Source: Chalciporus piperatus
Taxonomy: Eukaryota; Basidiomycota; Agaricomycetes; Boletales; Boletaceae
Direction: 5' to 3'
Length of the DNA: 17,656 bases
NCBI GenBank assembly: GCA_038093975.1
Contig: JBBPTG010000384.1
Location: 1-17,656 of the forward strand
Under the pieces are notes generated by a model. That model saw only the letters and a program-made list of their open reading frames with translations, made no database searches and was not told the DNA's origin. Made by a program: the position numbers and the translations under genes. Below are positions 166 to 17,656 of this stretch, piece after piece (within the stretch, counting starts at the first letter, position 1; each line of letters opens with the position of its first letter).

Positions 166-1398
166 CTAGCGTAGCCCAACCCGAAGGAGGGTGTCGGCCA
201 AGTCAGACGGATCCACCATTAAAGGTGTAGGCGAGCGGCGGTGTAAGTTTAGTTCTTCGTCGCCTTGTTCCATCAGACGGCCTGATGGATGACGAAGATA
301 GGCTTCATCGCCGAGAACAATGTGAGGCTCATCAAAGGGACGGATAGCATCCGCAGAGGACTCACGCTCGTCTAGCTGTTCCAACACTATTTTCTTCCAA
401 AGACCTGTTAAGTCGAATAAATTTTGTGTACGCTTACGTGACACAAGCATCCGACGGTCAGGGATACCGATCTTCCGGACGTCCGGGACCCAGAGTTCAT
501 CACCGAAATCATCAACCAGCTTTACAGCGTGGTGAGTTCCAGATATAGAATCAACATAGGACCTAGGGGCCGGCGGGAATTTTCGAGAATATTCGCCACG
601 CTCAGCTTTATCTAGCCAAGTGCGCATGTATCCCATCATAGTGTCGCTCAGTTCTTGTGCGTTAAAGTAATTCCATGCTGTATTGAAGTGGGTTTTGAGG
701 ACTAGCACGTCCGCGGTCCCCTCATTTCGTATTTGGAGACGATTTTCCCATCGTACTGTGAGCTTATCTCTAGCCCAACTCCGTACCAGCGCTTGTGGAT
801 AACCCCGCTTTACATAAAGAGCAACCAAGCTCGATATGGCGTCAGAGTAGTGTTCAAAGGTGCTACTCAGCGTGGCCAAACGGCTCATTTCACCAAAAAA
901 CGTTCCACGCTTGACGTCGAACGGGTGAGCAGAGATCCATGGAATCCTTTCCTGGTTTGATCGGACTTTCCGGTAGGGCATGTGCTGGAGAACGTTTTTA
1001 TCATCGACGTATAACATCATGTCCAGGAACGGTAAGTATTTTCCAACCTCCCAGGTTAATTCGCAGTCATCGACGTGTATTACTGATTGAACTATTTGTA
1101 GCGCCTCATGTTCAGATTCGGCGTAAACTATAGACAGACAGTCGTCGATATATCGTCCGTAGAAGACAATACTGTGGTGTTTTTGTACCTTGTCGCGTTT
1201 TTCACATGACCACCCGTACAGATTTGCAAGATCGGGTGAGTCCGCGACGCCCATTGCTAGGCCTTTAAGTTGAAGATAAGGTACGCCATCAAACTGCGTT
1301 ATCAGCTCTGTGTTGCCCACCTCTAGGCATCGTTTAAACGCGTTCTGTTGTCTCACATTGAACTCGTCGTCATGGTCAGGGATATTTATATGGTCATC
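166..1398 (-). CDS. Reverse transcriptase, Penelope-like, C-terminal exon (5' part missing)
   Basis: This exon encodes the palm and thumb part of an RNA-dependent DNA polymerase. Counted from the GTG at 1356 (396 residues), motif B is GLAMGVADSPDLAN (32-45), the catalytic motif C is YIDD (69-72) and LPFLD is at 108-112. YRK follows at 128-130 and a SAHPFDVKRG block near 142-151. LPFLD followed by YRK and an S-x-HP block is typical of Penelope-like RTs, which are relatives of telomerase. No GIY-YIG endonuclease follows. The GTG is not a credible eukaryotic start. The frame stays open 14 codons further, to an AG acceptor at 1399-1400, with an in-frame TAA at 1405-1407 behind it, so this is an internal or last exon. 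Motif A with its catalytic Asp and the fingers should lie upstream, and I find them in no frame of 1403-2300. The locus is 5' truncated, or its upstream exon is distant. RT assignment is secure; the Penelope-like placement is probable. Confidence 0.88.
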   Translation of the reverse strand, partial: DDHINIPDHDDEFNVRQQNAFKRCLEVGNTELITQFDGVPYLQLKGLAMGVADSPDLANLYGWSCEKRDKVQKHHSIVFYGRYIDDCLSIVYAESEHEALQIVQSVIHVDDCELTWEVGKYLPFLDMMLYVDDKNVLQHMPYRKVRSNQERIPWISAHPFDVKRGTFFGEMSRLATLSSTFEHYSDAISSLVALYVKRGYPQALVRSWARDKLTVRWENRLQIRNEGTADVLVLKTHFNTAWNYFNAQELSDTMMGYMRTWLDKAERGEYSRKFPPAPRSYVDSISGTHHAVKLVDDFGDELWVPDVRKIGIPDRRMLVSRKRTQNLFDLTGLWKKIVLEQLDERESSADAIRPFDEPHIVLGDEAYLRHPSGRLMEQGDEELNLHRRSPTPLMVDPSDLADTLLRVGLR

Positions 1399-4171: not shown

Positions 4172-4240
4172 CTAATGTGTGAGGTCAGTGTGAGCACGGG
4201 CGTCCTGGACGCCCGTCTGTGGTGTGGTGATGTGACTCAC
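4172..4240 (-). other. Candidate mini-intron, type B (69 nt) containing a palindrome
   Basis: Minus-strand donor GTGAGT at 4240-4235, ACTGACC branch-like site and acceptor CACACATTAG ending at 4172. An exact palindrome copy (4198-4214) lies inside. The preceding 38 nt exon carries another exact palindrome (4249-4265). Confidence 0.45.
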
Positions 4241-4280
4241 CTCGTCGTGGGCGTCCTGGACGCCCGTCGTCACTCGGTCC

Positions 4281-4318
4281 GGGATAAGGTCAGTAGAGAA
4301 TCAAAAGTCACGACTTAC
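4281..4318 (-). other. Decayed type A mini-intron (acceptor AG lost)
   Basis: The donor GTAAGT (4318-4313) and CTACTGACCTTATCCC are intact, but the expected CAG reads CGG. A similar decayed block starts at 4687 (donor GTAAGT, then CCACTGACC) and ends CCCCAA in place of CCCAG. Both lie in the same array as intact copies. Confidence 0.45.
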
Positions 4319-4514
4319 CGTATATCCGGATCGTTCGCCTGCACGCTCGGTGCAGAGCGGGCGTCCTGGACGCCCGTGGCTTGATGGGTGTGGTGGCGTC
4401 GTTTGAGCGTCGTGGTTGGTGTTTTCGTTGGGCCGCGTTTGTGTGTCGTAGTCGGTAGTTGTCGTGGCCGTTATGTTGTTTGCGTCGTCGTTGTCGTCGT
4501 GGTGTCGTGTTTAC

Positions 4515-4589
4515 CTGTGAATGAGGATCTTGATGTGAGAACGGGCGTCCTGGACGCCCGTTTGTGGTGACTGTGCTGGCATGACTTAC
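4515..4589 (-). other. Candidate mini-intron, type B (75 nt)
   Basis: Donor GTAAGT at 4589-4584 and acceptor CCTCATTCACAG ending at 4515 on the minus strand. It contains an exact palindrome, 4543-4559. Confidence 0.4.
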
Positions 4590-4845
4590 ATGTCGTGACG
4601 GCCGTCGTCATTTCGCGGTCGTTCCCGTTGTGCCGTCTTCGTTCGGTTTGGGGTGAGGTCAGTGGTTCCTCGATTGTCGTGACTTACCGTTGCAGAGCGG
4701 GCGTCCTGGACGCCCGCCGCTGCGTGGGTGGCCCGGTTTCATAGTCGCCGTCTTCATTGGGCCGCGTTTTCACGTCTTAGTCGGTAGTCGTAATCGTGTC
4801 GCGTTTTGCTGGTATCCGTGTTCTCGCAAGAGGAGAACACAGCAT

Positions 4846-4893
4846 CTAAAGAGTAGAAGTGGTTAGTTTTGCGTCTGAACGATGAGAACTTAC
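4846..4893 (-). other. Candidate mini-intron with consensus branch site (48 nt)
   Basis: Minus-strand GTAAGT (4893-4888), ACTAACCACTTCTAC and acceptor TCTTTAG ending at 4846. The plus-strand relative at 9530-9577 has the same length, a GGACTAACTACTTCTC branch region and a following exon with the same GAGAACAC sequence. Conservation of donor-branch-acceptor spacing between inverted copies is the best support that these are, or were, true introns. Confidence 0.6.
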
Positions 4894-4907
4894 CTATTTC
4901 TGACATT

Positions 4908-4972
4908 CTGTTGCTTGAGGTCCGATTGTGAATAAACAACGTCGTGATTAAGTCGCTCGTTAATTGACTTAC
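4908..4972 (-). other. Candidate mini-intron next to the 38 bp inverted motif (65 nt)
   Basis: Minus-strand donor AAG|GTAAGT at 4972-4967; possible acceptors CAACAG ending at 4908 or TGTCAG ending at 4900. The donor lies at the end of the 38 bp motif. In the plus copy (9421) the donor is altered to GTAAAT. Confidence 0.35.
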
Positions 4973-5007
4973 CTTCCTTTTCGAGTAGCCGCCGGTTCGG
5001 TTACATC
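4970..5007 (-). repeat. 38 bp inverted motif, minus copy
   Basis: On the minus strand this begins GATGTAACCGAACCGGCGGC and ends AAAAGGAAGGTA. It matches 9385-9422 on the plus strand with two differences by eye. The two copies bracket a core of about 4.4 kb in opposite orientation, and sequence outward of each continues as related exon/intron arrays. Confidence 0.75.
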
Positions 5008-5107
5008 GCACAACAGTTGGTGCCGCCGGTACGTTATTATTAGGTGGTGTGACTTGCCTTCCGTTTCTGGTAGCAGTCAACTCGATGATGACACGACCGC
5101 TGAAGCA
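5008..5107. other. Divergence point between minus and plus arrays
   Basis: About 100 bp between the oppositely oriented arrays. To the left the plus strand is G/T-rich, to the right A/C-rich. If the arrays are transcribed in the direction of their introns, a bidirectional promoter would lie here. I see no TATA box or other recognisable promoter element. Confidence 0.3.
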
Positions 5108-5162
5108 ATGACTGCATCGCAATCACGACGTCTCGGACTCGCAGAGCTGCATGGGAAGTCAG
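5108..5162 (+). other. Candidate short 5' coding exon (MTAS...AELHG)
   Basis: An ATG at 5108 opens 18 codons reading MTASQSRRLGLAELHGKS, followed directly by a GTAAGT donor at 5163. A diverged copy at about 6468-6527 reads TASNSTRSRRIGCAELHGDS before its own donor (GTGCGT). It differs in length by 9 nt, so the frame is kept. No family is recognised. Frame-preserving divergence hints at coding, but only 18-20 codons are available and copy 2 has ACG in place of the ATG. Confidence 0.3.
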
Positions 5163-5206
5163 GTAAGTGCATAGGGTTCACGACATGCTAACTACCTTCC
5201 ATCCAG
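5163..5206 (+). other. Candidate mini-intron with consensus signals (44 nt)
   Basis: Donor CAG|GTAAGT at 5163, branch site TGCTAAC near 5187-5193, acceptor CATCCAG ending at 5206. The following exon starts ATATTCGCACGAGGACACAC. Two plus-strand relatives have the same arrangement (6621-6666 and 9530-9577). Confidence 0.6.
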
Positions 5207-5554
5207 ATATTCGCACGAGGACACACAACGACCGCGAAAACACGACACCAACTCAACGCTCGTAAGTCACCACCTCCGTCACACCATGGGCGTCCAGGAC
5301 GCCCGCAACACACGCCGATGTTGCAACACATAATCGTAAGTGCAATCAACTCGTTTGATTAGTTACTAACCTTGGCTCACATCCAACAACGAAACGCGAC
5401 AAGACCGAACACGAAAACGAAACCGTGACACGACGAACACGCGACACTACGAGGACACCCGCGCAGCCACGGGCGTCCAGGACGCCCGCTCACCACAGTC
5501 GTCCCAATCTTACCGTGAAAACCCAGGGTGCTCCCGCAACACGTTCAAGGTAAG

Positions 5555-5598
5555 GTAAGTAGATTAAATTGTGTCGTATGAAAGTAATTCTGATGCAG
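5555..5598 (+). other. Candidate mini-intron (44 nt)
   Basis: Donor AAG|GTAAGT at 5555 (the second half of a GTAAG direct duplication), ATTCTGATG branch-like element, acceptor CAG ending at 5598. A palindrome follows 12 nt later at 5611. Confidence 0.4.
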
Positions 5599-5697
5599 CT
5601 TGAGCACCGCGGGCGTCCAGGACGCCCGTGCGTGTGCCAGGCAACGATGTTCATCACGCGACGGGTGTCCTAGACGCCCGCTTTGCATCAATCGATC

Positions 5698-5733
5698 GTA
5701 AGTAAATTTGATTCATTACTGACCTTATCCCAG
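5698..5733 (+). other. Candidate mini-intron, type A (36 nt)
   Basis: GTAAGT at 5698, TTACTGACC branch region, acceptor TTATCCCAG ending at 5733. It matches the minus-strand 3507-3542 and plus-strand 9737-9772 blocks in length and signals. 6869-6898 looks like the same block with the branch region deleted. Confidence 0.5.
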
Positions 5734-6195
5734 ACTCGACAACGAGCGAGACGCCACGAAAACGACAACGCGCGACAACGACGACCAACTCCGAGTCGCC
5801 TCTCGTCCCAGACCCAACGAAACACAACGGTGACCACAACGCGACCACGCGATGAGGACTCGCACAACGACACGACAACGCGACGAGTCGCGAAACAAAA
5901 TGGTAGGTTTTTGTTTCATTTTCTGACTTCGCTCGTGCATTGTGGGCATCCAGGCCCGCGACGCTCGCCGATGCCACTGCACCACGCGTACCCGTCCAAG
6001 CTCAGTCTTGGACGGACATGTGTAGTACAGAGTCACCTGGCATGTGGTCCAACACCCCCATCACACCACAGGCATCCAGGACGCCCGTTTGCGACGACCG
6101 TAGGCGTCCCAATCTTACCGTGAAAACCCAAGGCGCTATGGCCACCGTCCTTGGTCCATTATCTGCCTCACATCCGAGCAGCCCACAATGCCTAG

Positions 6196-6231
6196 GTAAG
6201 CAGAGTAGATTTTTATTCTACACTTGTTTAG
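6196..6231 (+). other. Weak mini-intron candidate (36 nt), present in one module copy
   Basis: GTAAGC at 6196 to TTGTTTAG ending at 6231. In module copy 2 (7356 on) the donor bases are missing although the acceptor side is kept. The block is therefore not conserved and may be chance. Confidence 0.2.
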
Positions 6232-6281
6232 ATAGTGGTATGTAAATATTACTAACTACAAGTTGAATGAATTGTTAGACA

Positions 6282-6386
6282 ATGTTCGACAGGGGGTTCG
6301 ACATGTTCGACAGGGGGTTCGACATGTTCGACAGGGGGTTCGACATGTTCGACAGGGGGTTCGACGTGTTCGACAGGGGGTTCGAC
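6282..6386 (+). repeat. 21 bp minisatellite, five copies
   Basis: Five units of 21 bp at 6282, 6303, 6324, 6345 and 6366. Each is ATGTTCGAC followed by AGGGGGTTCGAC, and the last begins GTG. The array closes module copy 1 and is followed after 11 bp by a GTAAGT (6398). Confidence 0.95.
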
Positions 6387-6527
6387 GTGGATTGTAGGTA
6401 AGTAACACCACTACACGACGGTGATAACACGACCCCAACCACACGATCACGGCCGACGAAGGAACGACTGCATCAAATTCAACACGATCGCGACGGATTG
6501 GATGCGCGGAGCTGCATGGAGATTCAG

Positions 6528-6594
6528 GTGCGTCAGCCAGCCACTCCGCGAAGCCAACGAAGCTAATTACCTTACCAACACTTGTTGTATTTAG
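6528..6594 (+). other. Candidate mini-intron (67 nt)
   Basis: Donor TTCAG|GTGCGT at 6528, GCTAATTACC branch-like site, acceptor TTGTATTTAG ending at 6594. The exon end GAGCTGCATGGAGATTCAG corresponds to the exon ending at 5162, so the donor position is conserved between the two copies. Confidence 0.45.
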
Positions 6595-6620
6595 CGAACA
6601 GCACGAAATCCAGATAACAG

Positions 6621-6666
6621 GTGAGTTCTTTAAATTCACAAACAGCTAACTATCTCCCCCATTCAG
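6621..6666 (+). other. Candidate mini-intron with consensus signals (46 nt)
   Basis: Donor ACAG|GTGAGT at 6621, branch CAGCTAAC ending 6650, acceptor CCCATTCAG ending at 6666. The next exon starts ATACTTGCACGAGAACACAC, a clear relative of the exon after 5206. Confidence 0.6.
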
Positions 6667-7047
6667 ATACTTGCACGAGAACACACGACCGCTGCAAAAA
6701 CAAGTCAAGACGACCACGAACATCCGACGCTCGCGCTGAGCTAACGACTACGCCACGAACTCGCGCGGCCCATCAACGACGGTATCCACGCTACGACGGG
6801 CATGCGAAGACATCCACGCAGCCACGGGAGTCCAGGACGCCCGCTGAGTGGCGACCGTCTGGCTAATTGTAAGTCAATTTGATTCTTTGTCGTCCCAGGC
6901 CCAACGAAACGCGACGGTGACCACTCCGCGACAACGCGCGACATCGCGACGACTCGGAACATGAAACCGATAAGCTCTCTATTCATATTTACTAATTTCT
7001 TGCTTTGCTCGTCCACTGCGGGCGTCATCGACGCCCGCGACACACGC
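6667..7047 (+). repeat. Second plus-strand A/C-rich block with palindromes
   Basis: Exon-like sequence after 6666 carries a palindrome variant at 6826, a branch-less type A remnant at 6869-6898 and a palindrome with an altered centre, GGGCGTCATCGACGCCC, at 7020. The frame from the acceptor at 6666 is open to a TAA at about 6864-6866 (roughly 66 codons, basic and Thr/Arg-rich). I recognise no family. Confidence 0.5.
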
Positions 7048-7549
7048 CGATGCCACTGCACCACGCGTACCCGTCCAAGCTCAGTCTTGGACGGACACGC
7101 GTAGTACAGAGTCATCTTGCATGTGGTCCAACCCCCTCATCACACCATGGGCGTCCAGGACGCCCGCTTGTGACAACCGTAAGTAGATTTCATCACTGAC
7201 CTTATACTAGACTCAACGACGGCACGAAGACGCGACAACATTGCAAGGACGCCCATGAAGCGACGGGCGTCCCAACCTTACCGTGAAACCCCAGGGCACT
7301 ATGGCAACCGTTCTTGGTCCATTATCTGCCTCATATCCGAGCAGCCCACAATGCCTAGGTTTTTATTCATACCATTTCTCACTACACTCGTTTAGATAGT
7401 GGTATGTAAACTTACTAACTACAAGTTGAATGAATTGTTCGACAATGTTCGACAGGGGGTTCGACATGTTCGACAGGGGGTTCGACATGTTCGACAGGGG
7501 GTTCGACATGTTCGACAGGGGGTTCGACGTGTTCGACAGGGGGTTCGAC
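7048..7549 (+). repeat. Duplicated module, copy 2, with five 21-mers
   Basis: Second copy of 5969-6386. It carries an extra segment of about 80 bp (7181-7264) containing a type A block, GTAAGT at 7179 with CACTGACC and acceptor TACTAG ending 7210, then A/C-rich sequence. Its 21-mers start at 7445, 7466, 7487, 7508 and 7529, again with the last unit beginning GTG. Having the same copy number and the same variant order in both arrays points to segmental duplication of the whole module, not independent expansion. Confidence 0.85.
7179..7210 (+). other. Candidate mini-intron, type A (32 nt)
   Basis: GTAAGT at 7179, ATCACTGACC, acceptor TACTAG ending at 7210. It is short for a functional spliceosomal intron and may be a decayed copy. 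Confidence 0.3.
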
Positions 7550-13459: not shown

Positions 13460-14234
13460 CGACCAAATCAAGGAATTGTCTCACGCTTATTAGACCAAAA
13501 TAAATTCATTTGACATGGACTATGACTTTGCTTATGTAAGCGGGAAGAACCAACCGTGATATCAGACTGAGTGGCAAAAACATCAAATATATCAACAAAT
13601 GTGTAGCAGAGTGTAGTAGACCACTTGCCACCAGAGTGTCACCATGACTACAACCATGAAATCTCCACAGAAATAGCCTTGCGTTGGCAGCCCACCGGTT
13701 AAGCTTGGTTTCGCGGTTAAAAATGTTAGGGGAGGGATTATCATTTCTCGGTTCTCGGTTCATGATCTCTGTTTGAGTCTCCAGTCTTGGGGTTAGTTTT
13801 TTATCTAGCCAGACATGAATAATGTCATCTACACATCAGGTCACATGCAATACGCAATACTCGAACATTAACTTGCCAAATAATAACAACAAGCATTTTC
13901 AAGCTAATTCAATCAAATCAAGAGCTACTCACATGATCATCAGACATAAATAGACCATAAGATCATGACGCATAACCTTGCTTACATAAGCGGGAAGAAA
14001 CGACTACGATCCAAGTCTAAACAAGAAAAACTGCGAAATTTACTAGCAAAGTGTAGTCAAGCGCTCCATCCAATGCTACATGAGATGTTTAATCCACAAG
14101 TCGACCAAATCAAGGAATTGTCCCACAGTCATTTTACCAGAACAAGTCATGTGACTATCAGCTACGACTTTGCTTATGTAAGCGGGAAGAATCGACCGCA
14201 ATCTTGGCCTCAACCAGTCAAAGAAGAGTTTCAT

Positions 14235-14317
14235 TAGCAAAGTGTAGGAAAACTCCGGCCACTAGCAACCATTAGCAACCATTAGCTCAAGGGTAGTTGT
14301 CTGCCTACACTTTGCTA
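14235..14317. repeat. 13 bp inverted repeat TAGCAAAGTGTAG
   Basis: TAGCAAAGTGTAG at 14235-14247 pairs perfectly with CTACACTTTGCTA at 14305-14317. Between them are tandem ACTAGCAACC/ATTAGCAACC words. It lies between units 3 and 4 of the 100 bp array. Confidence 0.8.
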
Positions 14318-14516
14318 CACAAGATTGAAATTTGCTTGAATTCACAAGTTTAACTTGCACGTCAACCAAATCAAGACATATTCTCACGCACCTTTAACAA
14401 AAATAAACCATATGATCATCACGCACAACTTTGCTTATGTAAGCGGGAAAAACCAACCGCAATCTGAGTTGAAACACACAAAAAAGCGAAATTCACTAGC
14501 AAAGTGTAGCCAAGTA

Positions 14517-14599
14517 TAGTCAAGTGTAGCATAACTCTGGTCACTAGCGACCATTAGCTCAATGCTAGTCATTTGCCTACACTCCGCTACACTTGACTA
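14517..14599. repeat. 13 bp inverted repeat TAGTCAAGTGTAG
   Basis: TAGTCAAGTGTAG at 14517-14529 pairs perfectly with CTACACTTGACTA at 14587-14599, with CACTAGCGACCATTAGCTCA between. It lies between units 4 and 5. Although the arm sequence differs from the 14235 dyad, pairing is preserved and both span exactly 83 bp. Confidence 0.8.
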
Positions 14600-15094
14600 G
14601 GATTTGCTTGAACTTACAAGTTTAATGCACAAGCCAATCAAATCAAGAAATATTTCCATGGTCATGAGACCAGATTGAATCACATGACCATCAGCTACAA
14701 CTTTGCTTATGTAAGCGAGAAAAACCGACCGCAACCTTGATCTCAACCGATCAAAGAAGCATTTCATTAGCAAAGTGTAGCTACTGTTACACAATGTATT
14801 TCAAGCACATGTCGACCAAATCAAGGAATATGCTCACGGTCATTTAACAAACATAAACCACATGATCATGACGCACAACTTTGCTTATATTAGCGGGAAA
14901 CATCGACCACAAATTATAGCCAAAATCAAACACAGCATCAACAGATACTACTCTGGAGTATTTTCATGTTATCTTGACCAAATCAAGAGATTATTTCACG
15001 GTTATTGGACGGAAAATAGTTCATTTTACATGGACTACAACTTTGCTTATATCAGCGGGAAGAACCAACCGTGACATTAGCTTCAGTGAGAAAA

Positions 15095-15122
15095 GGTTAG
15101 GGTTAGGTTAGGGTTAGGGGGG
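15095..15122 (+). repeat. Telomeric-type tract 1
   Basis: GGTTAGGGTTAGGTTAGG followed by GTTAGGGGGG: four to five TTAGGG-like units, one shortened. It forms the junction between the 100 bp array and the hammerhead-bearing part. Confidence 0.9.
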
Positions 15123-15162
15123 ACTTTCTCACGAAAGGGACTTAACGCTGAAGAGGAGTTAA

Positions 15163-15237
15163 CACCGGGTAACAGTGTTGAGACTTACTTGTCTCAACCT
15201 GGTCCTGTTTCGTTATAATAACTCATCAGACCCGATG
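15163..15237 (-). ncRNA. Hammerhead ribozyme (type I topology)
   Basis: Read on the minus strand from 15237. Stem I 5' arm CAUCGGGU (15237-15230), conserved core CUGAUGA (15229-15223), stem II GUUA-UUA-UAAC (15222-15212), conserved GAAA (15211-15208). Stem III starts CAG (15207-15205) and closes with CUG (15175-15173). It is extended by GUUGAGAC/GUCUCAAC (15198-15191 with 15184-15177) around the loop AAGUAA. Then U (15172), the cleavage-site H as U (15171), and the stem I 3' arm ACCCGGUG (15170-15163), which pairs with the 5' arm over 8 bp with one G-U. Predicted cleavage is between 15171 and 15170. All core bases and all three stems are present. Penelope-like elements are known to carry hammerheads near their ends. 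It lies 879 bp downstream of the RT stop on the same strand. Activity is untested. Confidence 0.88.
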
Positions 15238-15307
15238 GTAATTTGAACAACCGTTACACTCACAGCTTAAATAGACAATGAGTGGCTGGTGGGAATAAAA
15301 CGGCGAA

Positions 15308-15642: not shown

Positions 15643-15665
15643 GGTTAGGGTTAGGGTTAGGGTTA
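15643..15665 (+). repeat. Telomeric-type tract 2
   Basis: About 3.8 units of TTAGGG, preceded by degenerate GTTAAGG words from 15620. It lies within the 3' region of the element, G-rich strand plus. Confidence 0.9.
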
Positions 15666-15730
15666 ACTACACCAAAACACGTCACTATAATTCAGCTTTT
15701 AACGAAAAGCTCTACGAAAGTAACACTCAC

Positions 15731-15761
15731 GGTTAGGGTTAGGTTAAGGGTTAGGGTAAGG
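15731..15761 (+). repeat. Telomeric-type tract 3
   Basis: GGTTAGGGTTAGGTTAAGGG and further TTAGGG-like units with single-base insertions or deletions. Same orientation as tracts 1 and 2, about 355 bp from the RT stop codon of the right copy. Confidence 0.85.
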
Positions 15762-15950: not shown

Positions 15951-17656
15951 TAGTACCTCATGGCTCCGTCCGAAGACGATGGGCCTCTAATACCCACTTA
16001 GCCGAGGTGCGCGGTACCATTCAGTACCTTTGCAGAAAAAGTTACAAACGTGCGTTTCCAAGGGAGACCCAGGACGTCAGACCGACGAAACTGCGTTTCC
16101 TACGTTGCAAGGGACCTAGCGTAGCCCAACCCGAAGGAGGGTGTCGGCCAAGTCAGACGGATCCACCATTAAAGGTGTAGGCGAGCGGCGGTGTAAGTTT
16201 AGTTCTTCGTCGCCTTGTTCCATCAGACGGCCTGATGGATGACGAAGATAGGCTTCATCGCCGAGAACAATGTGAGGCTCATCAAAGGGACGGATAGCAT
16301 CCGCAGAGGACTCACGCTCGTCTAGCTGTTCCAACACTATTTTCTTCCAAAGACCTGTTAAGTCGAATAAATTTTGTGTACGCTTACGTGACACAAGCAT
16401 CCGACGGTCAGGGATACCGATCTTCCGGACGTCCGGGACCCAGAGTTCATCACCGAAATCATCAACCAGCTTTACAGCGTGGTGAGTTCCAGATATAGAA
16501 TCAACATAGGACCTAGGGGCCGGCGGGAATTTTCGAGAATATTCGCCACGCTCAGCTTTATCTAGCCAAGTGCGCATGTATCCCATCATAGTGTCGCTCA
16601 GTTCTTGTGCGTTAAAGTAATTCCATGCTGTATTGAAGTGGGTTTTGAGGACTAGCACGTCCGCGGTCCCCTCATTTCGTATTTGGAGACGATTTTCCCA
16701 TCGTACTGTGAGCTTATCTCTAGCCCAACTCCGTACCAGCGCTTGTGGATAACCCCGCTTTACATAAAGAGCAACCAAGCTCGATATGGCGTCAGAGTAG
16801 TGTTCAAAGGTGCTACTCAGCGTGGCCAAACGGCTCATTTCACCAAAAAACGTTCCACGCTTGACGTCGAACGGGTGAGCAGAGATCCATGGAATCCTTT
16901 CCTGGTTTGATCGGACTTTCCGGTAGGGCATGTGCTGGAGAACGTTTTTATCATCGACGTATAACATCATGTCCAGGAACGGTAAGTATTTTCCAACCTC
17001 CCAGGTTAATTCGCAGTCATCGACGTGTATTACTGATTGAACTATTTGTAGCGCCTCATGTTCAGATTCGGCGTAAACTATAGACAGACAGTCGTCGATA
17101 TATCGTCCGTAGAAGACAATACTGTGGTGTTTTTGTACCTTGTCGCGTTTTTCACATGACCACCCGTACAGATTTGCAAGATCGGGTGAGTCCGCGACGC
17201 CCATTGCTAGGCCTTTAAGTTGAAGATAAGGTACGCCATCAAACTGCGTTATCAGCTCTGTGTTGCCCACCTCTAGGCATCGTTTAAACGCGTTCTGTTG
17301 TCTCACATTGAACTCGTCGTCATGGTCAGGGATATTTATATGGTCATCCTGGAATTAAGATACAAAGTCAATTTTTTATTTGTGGAATCTCTTTGTGGGG
17401 CTGGATAGAGCACATCTGTGGGATCATTTTGAGCTAACAATCATGAAAATCCGTGGTCTCGTTCTCGAGATAAAAATCAAACAAGGTGGTATGGGGACAT
17501 ATGTGGATATCGACACGAAATAAATATGTGGGGTCTCAGAAGTGTTACCAATGGATTCAGAGGGTCGAGAAACCCCCGGAATAATGTTTCCAGATCATAG
17601 GGACGCTTGGTCGAATTAATTCGTACATGTCTTGAGAAAGGAGGGGGGAGGGTTTT
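15951..17656. repeat. Right copy of 1706 bp direct repeat
   Basis: Matches 1-1706; A at 16061 in place of G at 111 is the only difference I found. It continues the head-to-tail unit, or closes a circle of 15,950 bp. Confidence 0.97.
16116..17348 (-). CDS. Reverse transcriptase, Penelope-like, C-terminal exon (right copy)
   Basis: The 396 residues from GTG 17306 are identical to those of the left copy, with YIDD, GLAMG, LPFLD and YRK at the same positions. The open frame again starts at the acceptor (17349-17350). The variant base 16061/111 lies downstream of the stop codon, so the proteins do not differ. This copy shows the 3' context: telomeric tracts 355-470 bp and the hammerhead about 880 bp downstream on the same strand. 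The upstream side is cut by the window end. If the molecule is circular, this is the same gene as 166-1398. Confidence 0.88.
   Translation of the reverse strand, partial: DDHINIPDHDDEFNVRQQNAFKRCLEVGNTELITQFDGVPYLQLKGLAMGVADSPDLANLYGWSCEKRDKVQKHHSIVFYGRYIDDCLSIVYAESEHEALQIVQSVIHVDDCELTWEVGKYLPFLDMMLYVDDKNVLQHMPYRKVRSNQERIPWISAHPFDVKRGTFFGEMSRLATLSSTFEHYSDAISSLVALYVKRGYPQALVRSWARDKLTVRWENRLQIRNEGTADVLVLKTHFNTAWNYFNAQELSDTMMGYMRTWLDKAERGEYSRKFPPAPRSYVDSISGTHHAVKLVDDFGDELWVPDVRKIGIPDRRMLVSRKRTQNLFDLTGLWKKIVLEQLDERESSADAIRPFDEPHIVLGDEAYLRHPSGRLMEQGDEELNLHRRSPTPLMVDPSDLADTLLRVGLR

Follow-up and report, generated by a model that had tools for sequence, protein, structure and literature searches.

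A type I hammerhead motif overlapped by a spliceosomal-type intron in a telomere-associated, probably Penelope-like element of Chalciporus piperatus

In this work, we have analysed a stretch of 17,656 nucleotides from the fungus Chalciporus piperatus (contig JBBPTG010000384.1), hereafter the window; it is contig C384 of the 484 contigs, 35.5 Mb in all, in which copies were sought. On its minus strand, downstream of the reverse transcriptase (RT) of a putative Penelope-like element, lies a type I hammerhead ribozyme motif (15163..15238), and overlapping this motif is a 59-nt stretch with the features of a spliceosomal intron (15205..15263, minus strand) that is exactly absent from two copies of the untranslated region (UTR) on another contig, C425. 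The overlap of intron and ribozyme is the new feature here; the initial annotation of the window, which had described the hammerhead, overlooked it.

The element and its hammerhead motif

The element copy in the window is 5'-truncated. A 412-codon open frame holds the C-terminal part of the RT (16116..17336, minus strand), bounded by a 5' junction with a repeat, X, at 17336, and about 880 nt separate the RT stop from the hammerhead on its 3' side. Full-length units of the element measure 4.5-4.6 kb and have one open reading frame (ORF), and a complete RT ORF is found in two units. Searches of the full ORF against Pfam and NCBIfam at E<=1 gave RT families only, with no GIY-YIG endonuclease. Past the ribozyme, on the same strand, sequence and fold indicate a small hairpin, CUUUC-GUGA-GAAAG (15124..15137), which lies between it and the 3' end of the element, a C-strand telomeric tract, CCCCCCTAACCCTAACCTAACCCTAACC (15095..15122), followed by unrelated flank. 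This end is placed by the 3' junctions of the eight intact copies, all of which (8/8 tails) finish in at least one CCCTAA unit before unrelated flank begins. The 3' UTR also holds telomere-like tracts at two internal places (15662-15645 and 15761-15733, minus strand, within 15645..15761), and at the places matching them C425 has expanded telomeric tracts. The 5' side of the element faces the nearby contig end in 4/4 contigs longer than 20 kb that have a copy within 10 kb of an end (C16, C149, C164 and C344); the copy on C3 is internal, and contig ends may not equal chromosome ends. Judged from the sequence, the telomeric 3' ends with unrelated flank beyond them are as expected for a telomere-attaching, endonuclease-deficient Penelope-like element of about 4.6 kb, and the initial annotation had rightly placed an RT element, in which we detected no endonuclease, beside telomeric tracts.

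Read from 15238 to 15163 on the minus strand, the motif is CCAUCGGGU CUGAUGA GUUA-UUA-UAAC GAA ACAG-GACCAG-GUUGAGAC-AAGUAA-GUCUCAAC-A-CUGU U/ACCCGGUG, where the slash marks the predicted cut. Stem I is formed by 15237-15230 with 15170-15163 (8 bp, including one G-U), and stem II by 15222-15219 with 15215-15212 (4 bp, loop II being UUA). Stem III comprises 15208-15205 with 15175-15172 and 15198-15191 with 15184-15177, so that an asymmetric internal loop separates 4 bp from a further 8 bp. The core segments CUGAUGA and GAA occupy 15229-15223 and 15211-15209. All 24 of the 24 pairs are standard in a script check, and the type I core positions are present as CUGAUGA, GAAA and GUU at 15171 (tested: CUGANGA...GAA, A15.1-U16.1 and NUH before the cut). 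The three helices join at the core and the structure is open at helix I, as befits type I, in an arrangement that is not the computed minimum-energy fold. Beyond stem I, a possible partner of loop II (UUA) in tertiary contacts, there is a 1x1 mismatch and then three further pairs. Cleavage is predicted between 15171 and 15170, which agrees with the RNA 5' end at 15170 implied by the initial annotation. Its account of a complete hammerhead 3' of the RT, with an 8 bp stem I, a 4 bp stem II and every invariant core position, is borne out by the pairing check and by eight full copies.

A descriptor of the motif matched the window once (15163-15238); both strands of 400 first-order Markov sequences as long as the window (7.06 Mb in total) gave no match. 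A looser descriptor, run on 115.8 kb of fetched contigs, matched only copies of this element, in 7/8 of the intact ones; the copy on C344 fails because one position of stem II is a C-A mismatch. At the level of sequence, a complete type I hammerhead motif on the minus strand is confirmed, and self-cleavage is its predicted activity. Within the stem III loop, GTAAGT at 15183-15188 (minus strand) is a possible second 5' splice site.

The ribozyme region is present in at least eight full copies on eight contigs, plus the two interrupted copies on C425, and the 76-nt ribozyme occurs among the copies in three distinct versions. The copies on C3 and C164 differ at 4/304 positions, three of them in the stem III hairpin, with all pairing kept (A-U to U-G, A-U to G-U). 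These pair-preserving changes in C3 support the hammerhead in a suggestive way only, because a shuffle control on three versions has no power (181/500). All core positions are kept in 8/8 tail copies, and the copies are young.

The initial annotation had further suggested that, in a tandem or circular template, the ribozyme would release unit-length RNA of about 15.95 kb. We reject such a 15.95-kb unit as a ribozyme product because the repeat of that length is a subtelomeric mosaic, in which a 5'-truncated element copy is joined to an unrelated repeat; full units have the shorter length given above, and no placed copy end lies at 15171/15170.

A 59-nt spliceosomal-type intron through the ribozyme motif

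The intron signals are GTGAGT at 15263-15258, a branch-like CTGAT at 15229-15225, inside CUGAUGA, and CAG at 15207-15205. The two interrupted UTR copies on C425 lack exactly the 59 nt from 15263 to 15205 (GTGAGT...CTGAT...AAACAG), so that the DNA-level marks of a GT-AG intron are all seen: both splice sites, a branch-like site and an exact loss in part of the copies. With the 59 nt go the core, GAA and all of stem II, as well as the 5' sides of stem I and of the proximal part of stem III. The stretch is present in the C3 copy and in seven others, among them that on C420, where one inserted base makes it 60 nt; the spliced junction, searched with up to two mismatches, occurs only at the two C425 places. 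One of the interrupted copies shows 0/452 other differences from the adjacent intact tail, and the other shows five differences from both of these (C16 was omitted from the pairwise counts, as its homology begins late).

From the exact absence of a GT-AG stretch, therefore, a spliced sense RNA has probably been reverse-transcribed at least once. Since the evidence is DNA only, the state without the 59 nt might instead be an ordinary deletion, or the ancestral state with the 59 nt gained elsewhere, and splicing would have played no part. We think this very improbable: presence of the stretch is the common state among the copies, and GTRAGT..YAG boundaries fit only 21 of the 207,483 possible deletions of 45-90 nt in the element, about 1 in 10,000.

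A telomeric tract stands before each of the interrupted copies on C425, and each of them leads directly to the beginning of a full-length ORF. Unit 3 retains intron and ribozyme in its tail, and the body of unit 2 ends at an internal telomeric tract. Thus, 2/2 leaders look spliced as against 0/8 tails (Fisher 0.022; the counts are not independent). On the simplest reading of this arrangement, C425 would hold two insertions, each carrying a spliced leader from an upstream UTR copy.

All eight intact tails (8/8) continue through the predicted cleavage site, 15171/15170, and no copy end that could be placed falls there, the copies on C164 and C149 running off their contigs; the ends of the inserted DNA seen are therefore not determined by cleavage. 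The green anole Poseidon element is in line with this: its ribozyme depends on the element's protein for cleavage, and insertion in vitro proceeds without cleavage (PMC11167929).

Possible fates of the RNA and competing explanations

We consider it reasonably probable that the motif is a type I hammerhead in the UTR of a telomere-attaching, endonuclease-deficient Penelope-like element of about 4.6 kb, in which splicing disarms the ribozyme of the leader and the tail keeps it. We propose that the same untranslated region would serve as 3' tail and, in tandem or upstream-initiated transcripts, as 5' leader of the next ORF, and that the 59-nt loss would reflect splicing followed by reverse transcription. 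Splicing of the leader would disarm the ribozyme, leaving the RNA with its 5' part attached and fit for translation and copying. As for the tail, its unspliced fold together with the hairpin may expose (CCCUAA)n to a 3' overhang of TTAGGG repeats, which would then prime reverse transcription, as proposed for the Terminons of rotifers. Cleavage, if any, would hit RNAs that are not copied, or would follow copying.

More tentatively, and with less than even confidence, we suggest that one stretch of RNA has two mutually exclusive fates, splicing and self-cleavage, and that these would sort RNAs for translation or for copying to chromosome ends. Were the spliceosome to act first, the catalytic core would leave as part of the intron and the leader of the RNA would become stable and translatable; were the ribozyme to act first, the leader would be cut off. 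Because the same letters make up branch-site motif and catalytic core, neither would easily be lost alone, and a self-cleaving ribozyme would stay locked into a telomere-attaching retrotransposon. An intron with a branch-like motif in a ribozyme core would offer a simple switch, open to experimental test, by which RNA either becomes mRNA or is cleaved.

Several observations weigh against our proposal. Rfam gave no match for the motif at the gathering score, and none to a hammerhead in the whole window at E<=10. With a 201-nt input the sole hammerhead match was to type III, at 12.4 bits (gathering score 48.5) and E 7.2, in another helix register and ranked third, below two chance-level families. 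The initial annotation had named a missing covariance match and missing cleavage in vitro as the pair of outcomes that would tell against the hammerhead, and the former is what the search of motif and window returned; we have treated recognition at the gathering score as a test, not as the definition, of a type I hammerhead. In the folding calculation, the minimum-energy fold (-28.0 kcal/mol, against -21.7 for the hammerhead fold, with no tertiary terms) pairs the core CUG with CAG and builds stem III on a second CAG, and the proximal stem III pairs have a probability of about 0. As to C425, the two interrupted copies have variants in common and could go back to a single event, and recombination between telomeric tracts could yield the same picture.

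These folding results also speak for regarding the motif as a fossil, which would take up the lower-energy inactive fold, never cleave and only provide a 3' structure to which the RT binds. The 6.3 kcal/mol by which the hammerhead lies above the best fold, the lack of a covariance match and the invariably uncut tails are in line with this idea, which we regard as possible, though doubtful. The 80-nt RNA has a folding energy 3.9 standard deviations below shuffles, with 0/200 as low, the lowest fold itself not being the hammerhead. Against a fossil, the core positions are conserved in every tail, although in young copies; the computed energies omit tertiary contacts; and the anole ribozyme, inactive alone, did cleave with its protein (PMC11167929).

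Splicing could also be real and yet accidental, if the core happens to mimic a branch site and GAAACAG a 3' splice site, with no role in the life cycle. CUGAU belongs to the invariant hammerhead core, two more GTRAGT..YAG stretches with a branch-like motif show no loss in units 2 and 3 and in C420, and one event, or at most two, would suffice to explain the data. Both leaders look spliced, however, and GTGAGT and a length of 59 nt fit the norms of fungal introns well; we rate such cryptic splicing as somewhat unlikely. Less likely still is a processing role of the kind known from retrozymes and viroids, in which the hammerhead would cut multimeric or tandem transcripts to units of about 4.6 kb and the cut RNAs would be the templates for retrotransposition. 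A complete motif does stand at the end of the C425 tandem array, and the single-copy fold, with its full stem III, needs no dimer. Against it, no copy end that could be placed lies at the cut site, and intact tails pass through it without exception; both C425 leaders extend past this site with the core removed, and insertion of the anole Poseidon in vitro is independent of cleavage (PMC11167929).

Related elements and other features

Hammerheads in Penelope-like elements are known, as the initial annotation had stated; those of Penelope-like elements and Terminons are called minimal forms, with a role described as unknown (PMC7761336, PMC7229834). Here stem III is long and complete, unlike in those minimal forms (PMC7761336). 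Terminons, or Athena elements, are endonuclease-deficient, telomere-attaching Penelope-like elements of bdelloid rotifers (PMC6431247). They share with our element an RT without endonuclease, C-strand telomeric repeats placed after a hammerhead close to the 3' end, arrays near chromosome ends and telomeric repeats at 5' truncations, the last seen here on C425 only. In contrast to Terminons, which reach 40 kb and carry accessory ORFs, the element has units of 4.5-4.6 kb with one ORF, which does not fit a Terminon; the intron overlapping the ribozyme also sets it apart from them.

Closer by host are the Coprina elements, endonuclease-deficient Penelope-like elements of basidiomycete fungi. Telomere-linked Penelope-like elements are described in Agaricus bisporus (PMC7473861). 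The element would resemble Coprina in its fungal host group, judged by the named RT relatives, in its subtelomeric place and in an RT with no detected endonuclease; in titles and abstract openings we found no report of a hammerhead in Coprina. The anole Poseidon resembles our element in having a hammerhead in a repeated untranslated region near the ORF start of the next unit, and differs in that its cut site is inside the ORF start, an endonuclease is present and the text mentions no intron (PMC11167929). As in retrozymes, the hammerhead sits in a retroelement (PMC7229834, PMC6155905), but those are small, non-autonomous and have circular RNA, whereas this element encodes an RT and has telomeric ends; the full-length RT ORF in two units does not fit a retrozyme.

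In humans, C10orf118 and RECK have intronic hammerheads, that of C10orf118 in a 5' UTR intron, and cleavage has been suggested to be connected with splicing; fungal hammerheads in repeats are known from Yarrowia (PMC3088659). In the human genes the ribozyme is described as sitting inside the intron, whereas in our case, a retroelement whose DNA copies include spliced-looking ones, a splice boundary falls in the middle of the ribozyme. A limited literature search, mainly of titles and abstract openings, found no retroelement hammerhead cut by a spliceosomal intron. For rotifer Penelope elements, intron retention led to the suggestion of an antisense or unspliced sense template, and the template question was left open (PMC3846280). 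Genomic copies whose sole difference is a GT-AG intron point to the copying of spliced sense RNA in our fungal element, and this bears directly on that question.

Among the 120 listed of 319 RT relatives, the few with organism names come from Sanghuangporus, Phellinidium, Coniferiporia, Mycena, Armillaria and Lyophyllum, all mushroom-group fungi. By DNA, no relatives of the RT were found in viral_contigs or genome_contigs, and the exact hammerhead core was not found in viral_contigs. Protein searches of this genome with the full ORF and a 50%-identical Armillaria RT, over prefiltered candidates only, gave no further Penelope-like family. In a PDB sequence search with the RT the best match was the bacterial Drt3a RT (E 0.012); no structure titled Penelope was among the matches listed, which excludes nothing.

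A pattern search for CTGATGAGAGC...GCTCGAAAC returned four loci, C65:67286, C97:36670, C188:4331 and C358:1476 (L045-L047 and L050). Three of the four were read: stem II is formed in 3/3, stem III (AGCGGU..ACCGCU) in 2/3 and stem I in 0/3, and we reject them as a second hammerhead family. One of the two loci searched against Rfam, L047, scored 19.8 bits as type III, below threshold; ARAGORN found no transfer RNA at these loci, and the repeat may be a short interspersed nuclear element with a B-box-like stretch. Pattern matches on C4 and C245 were set aside, their stem II being unpaired past the first pair.

The ends of the window, 1-1706 and 15951-17656, duplicate each other with one mismatch (position 111), as a tandem, a circle or an assembly overlap, and the truncated RT is accordingly recorded a second time at 166..1386 (minus strand). 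Next to it, 1386-2304 is a subtelomeric repeat with internal 303-bp units, which has 15 matches of at least 700 nt on 14 contigs; 14/15 of them share the end at 1386. On C425 (L027), positions 1-825 have a mitochondrion-like composition (17.7% G+C) and abut a telomeric tract at 829-950, either a real capture or an assembly chimera. Elsewhere in the window, the palindrome GGGCGTCCWGGACGCCC occurs in nine copies within 4198-7165, and plus-strand intron-like stretches, GTRAGT..CTAAC/CTGAC..CAG, begin at 5163, 6621 and 10081. Finally, 13526-15060 contains five spaced CTTTGCTTATGTAAGCGGGA-like motifs, together with inverted AGCAAAGTGTAG/CTACACTTTGCT pairs noted by eye.
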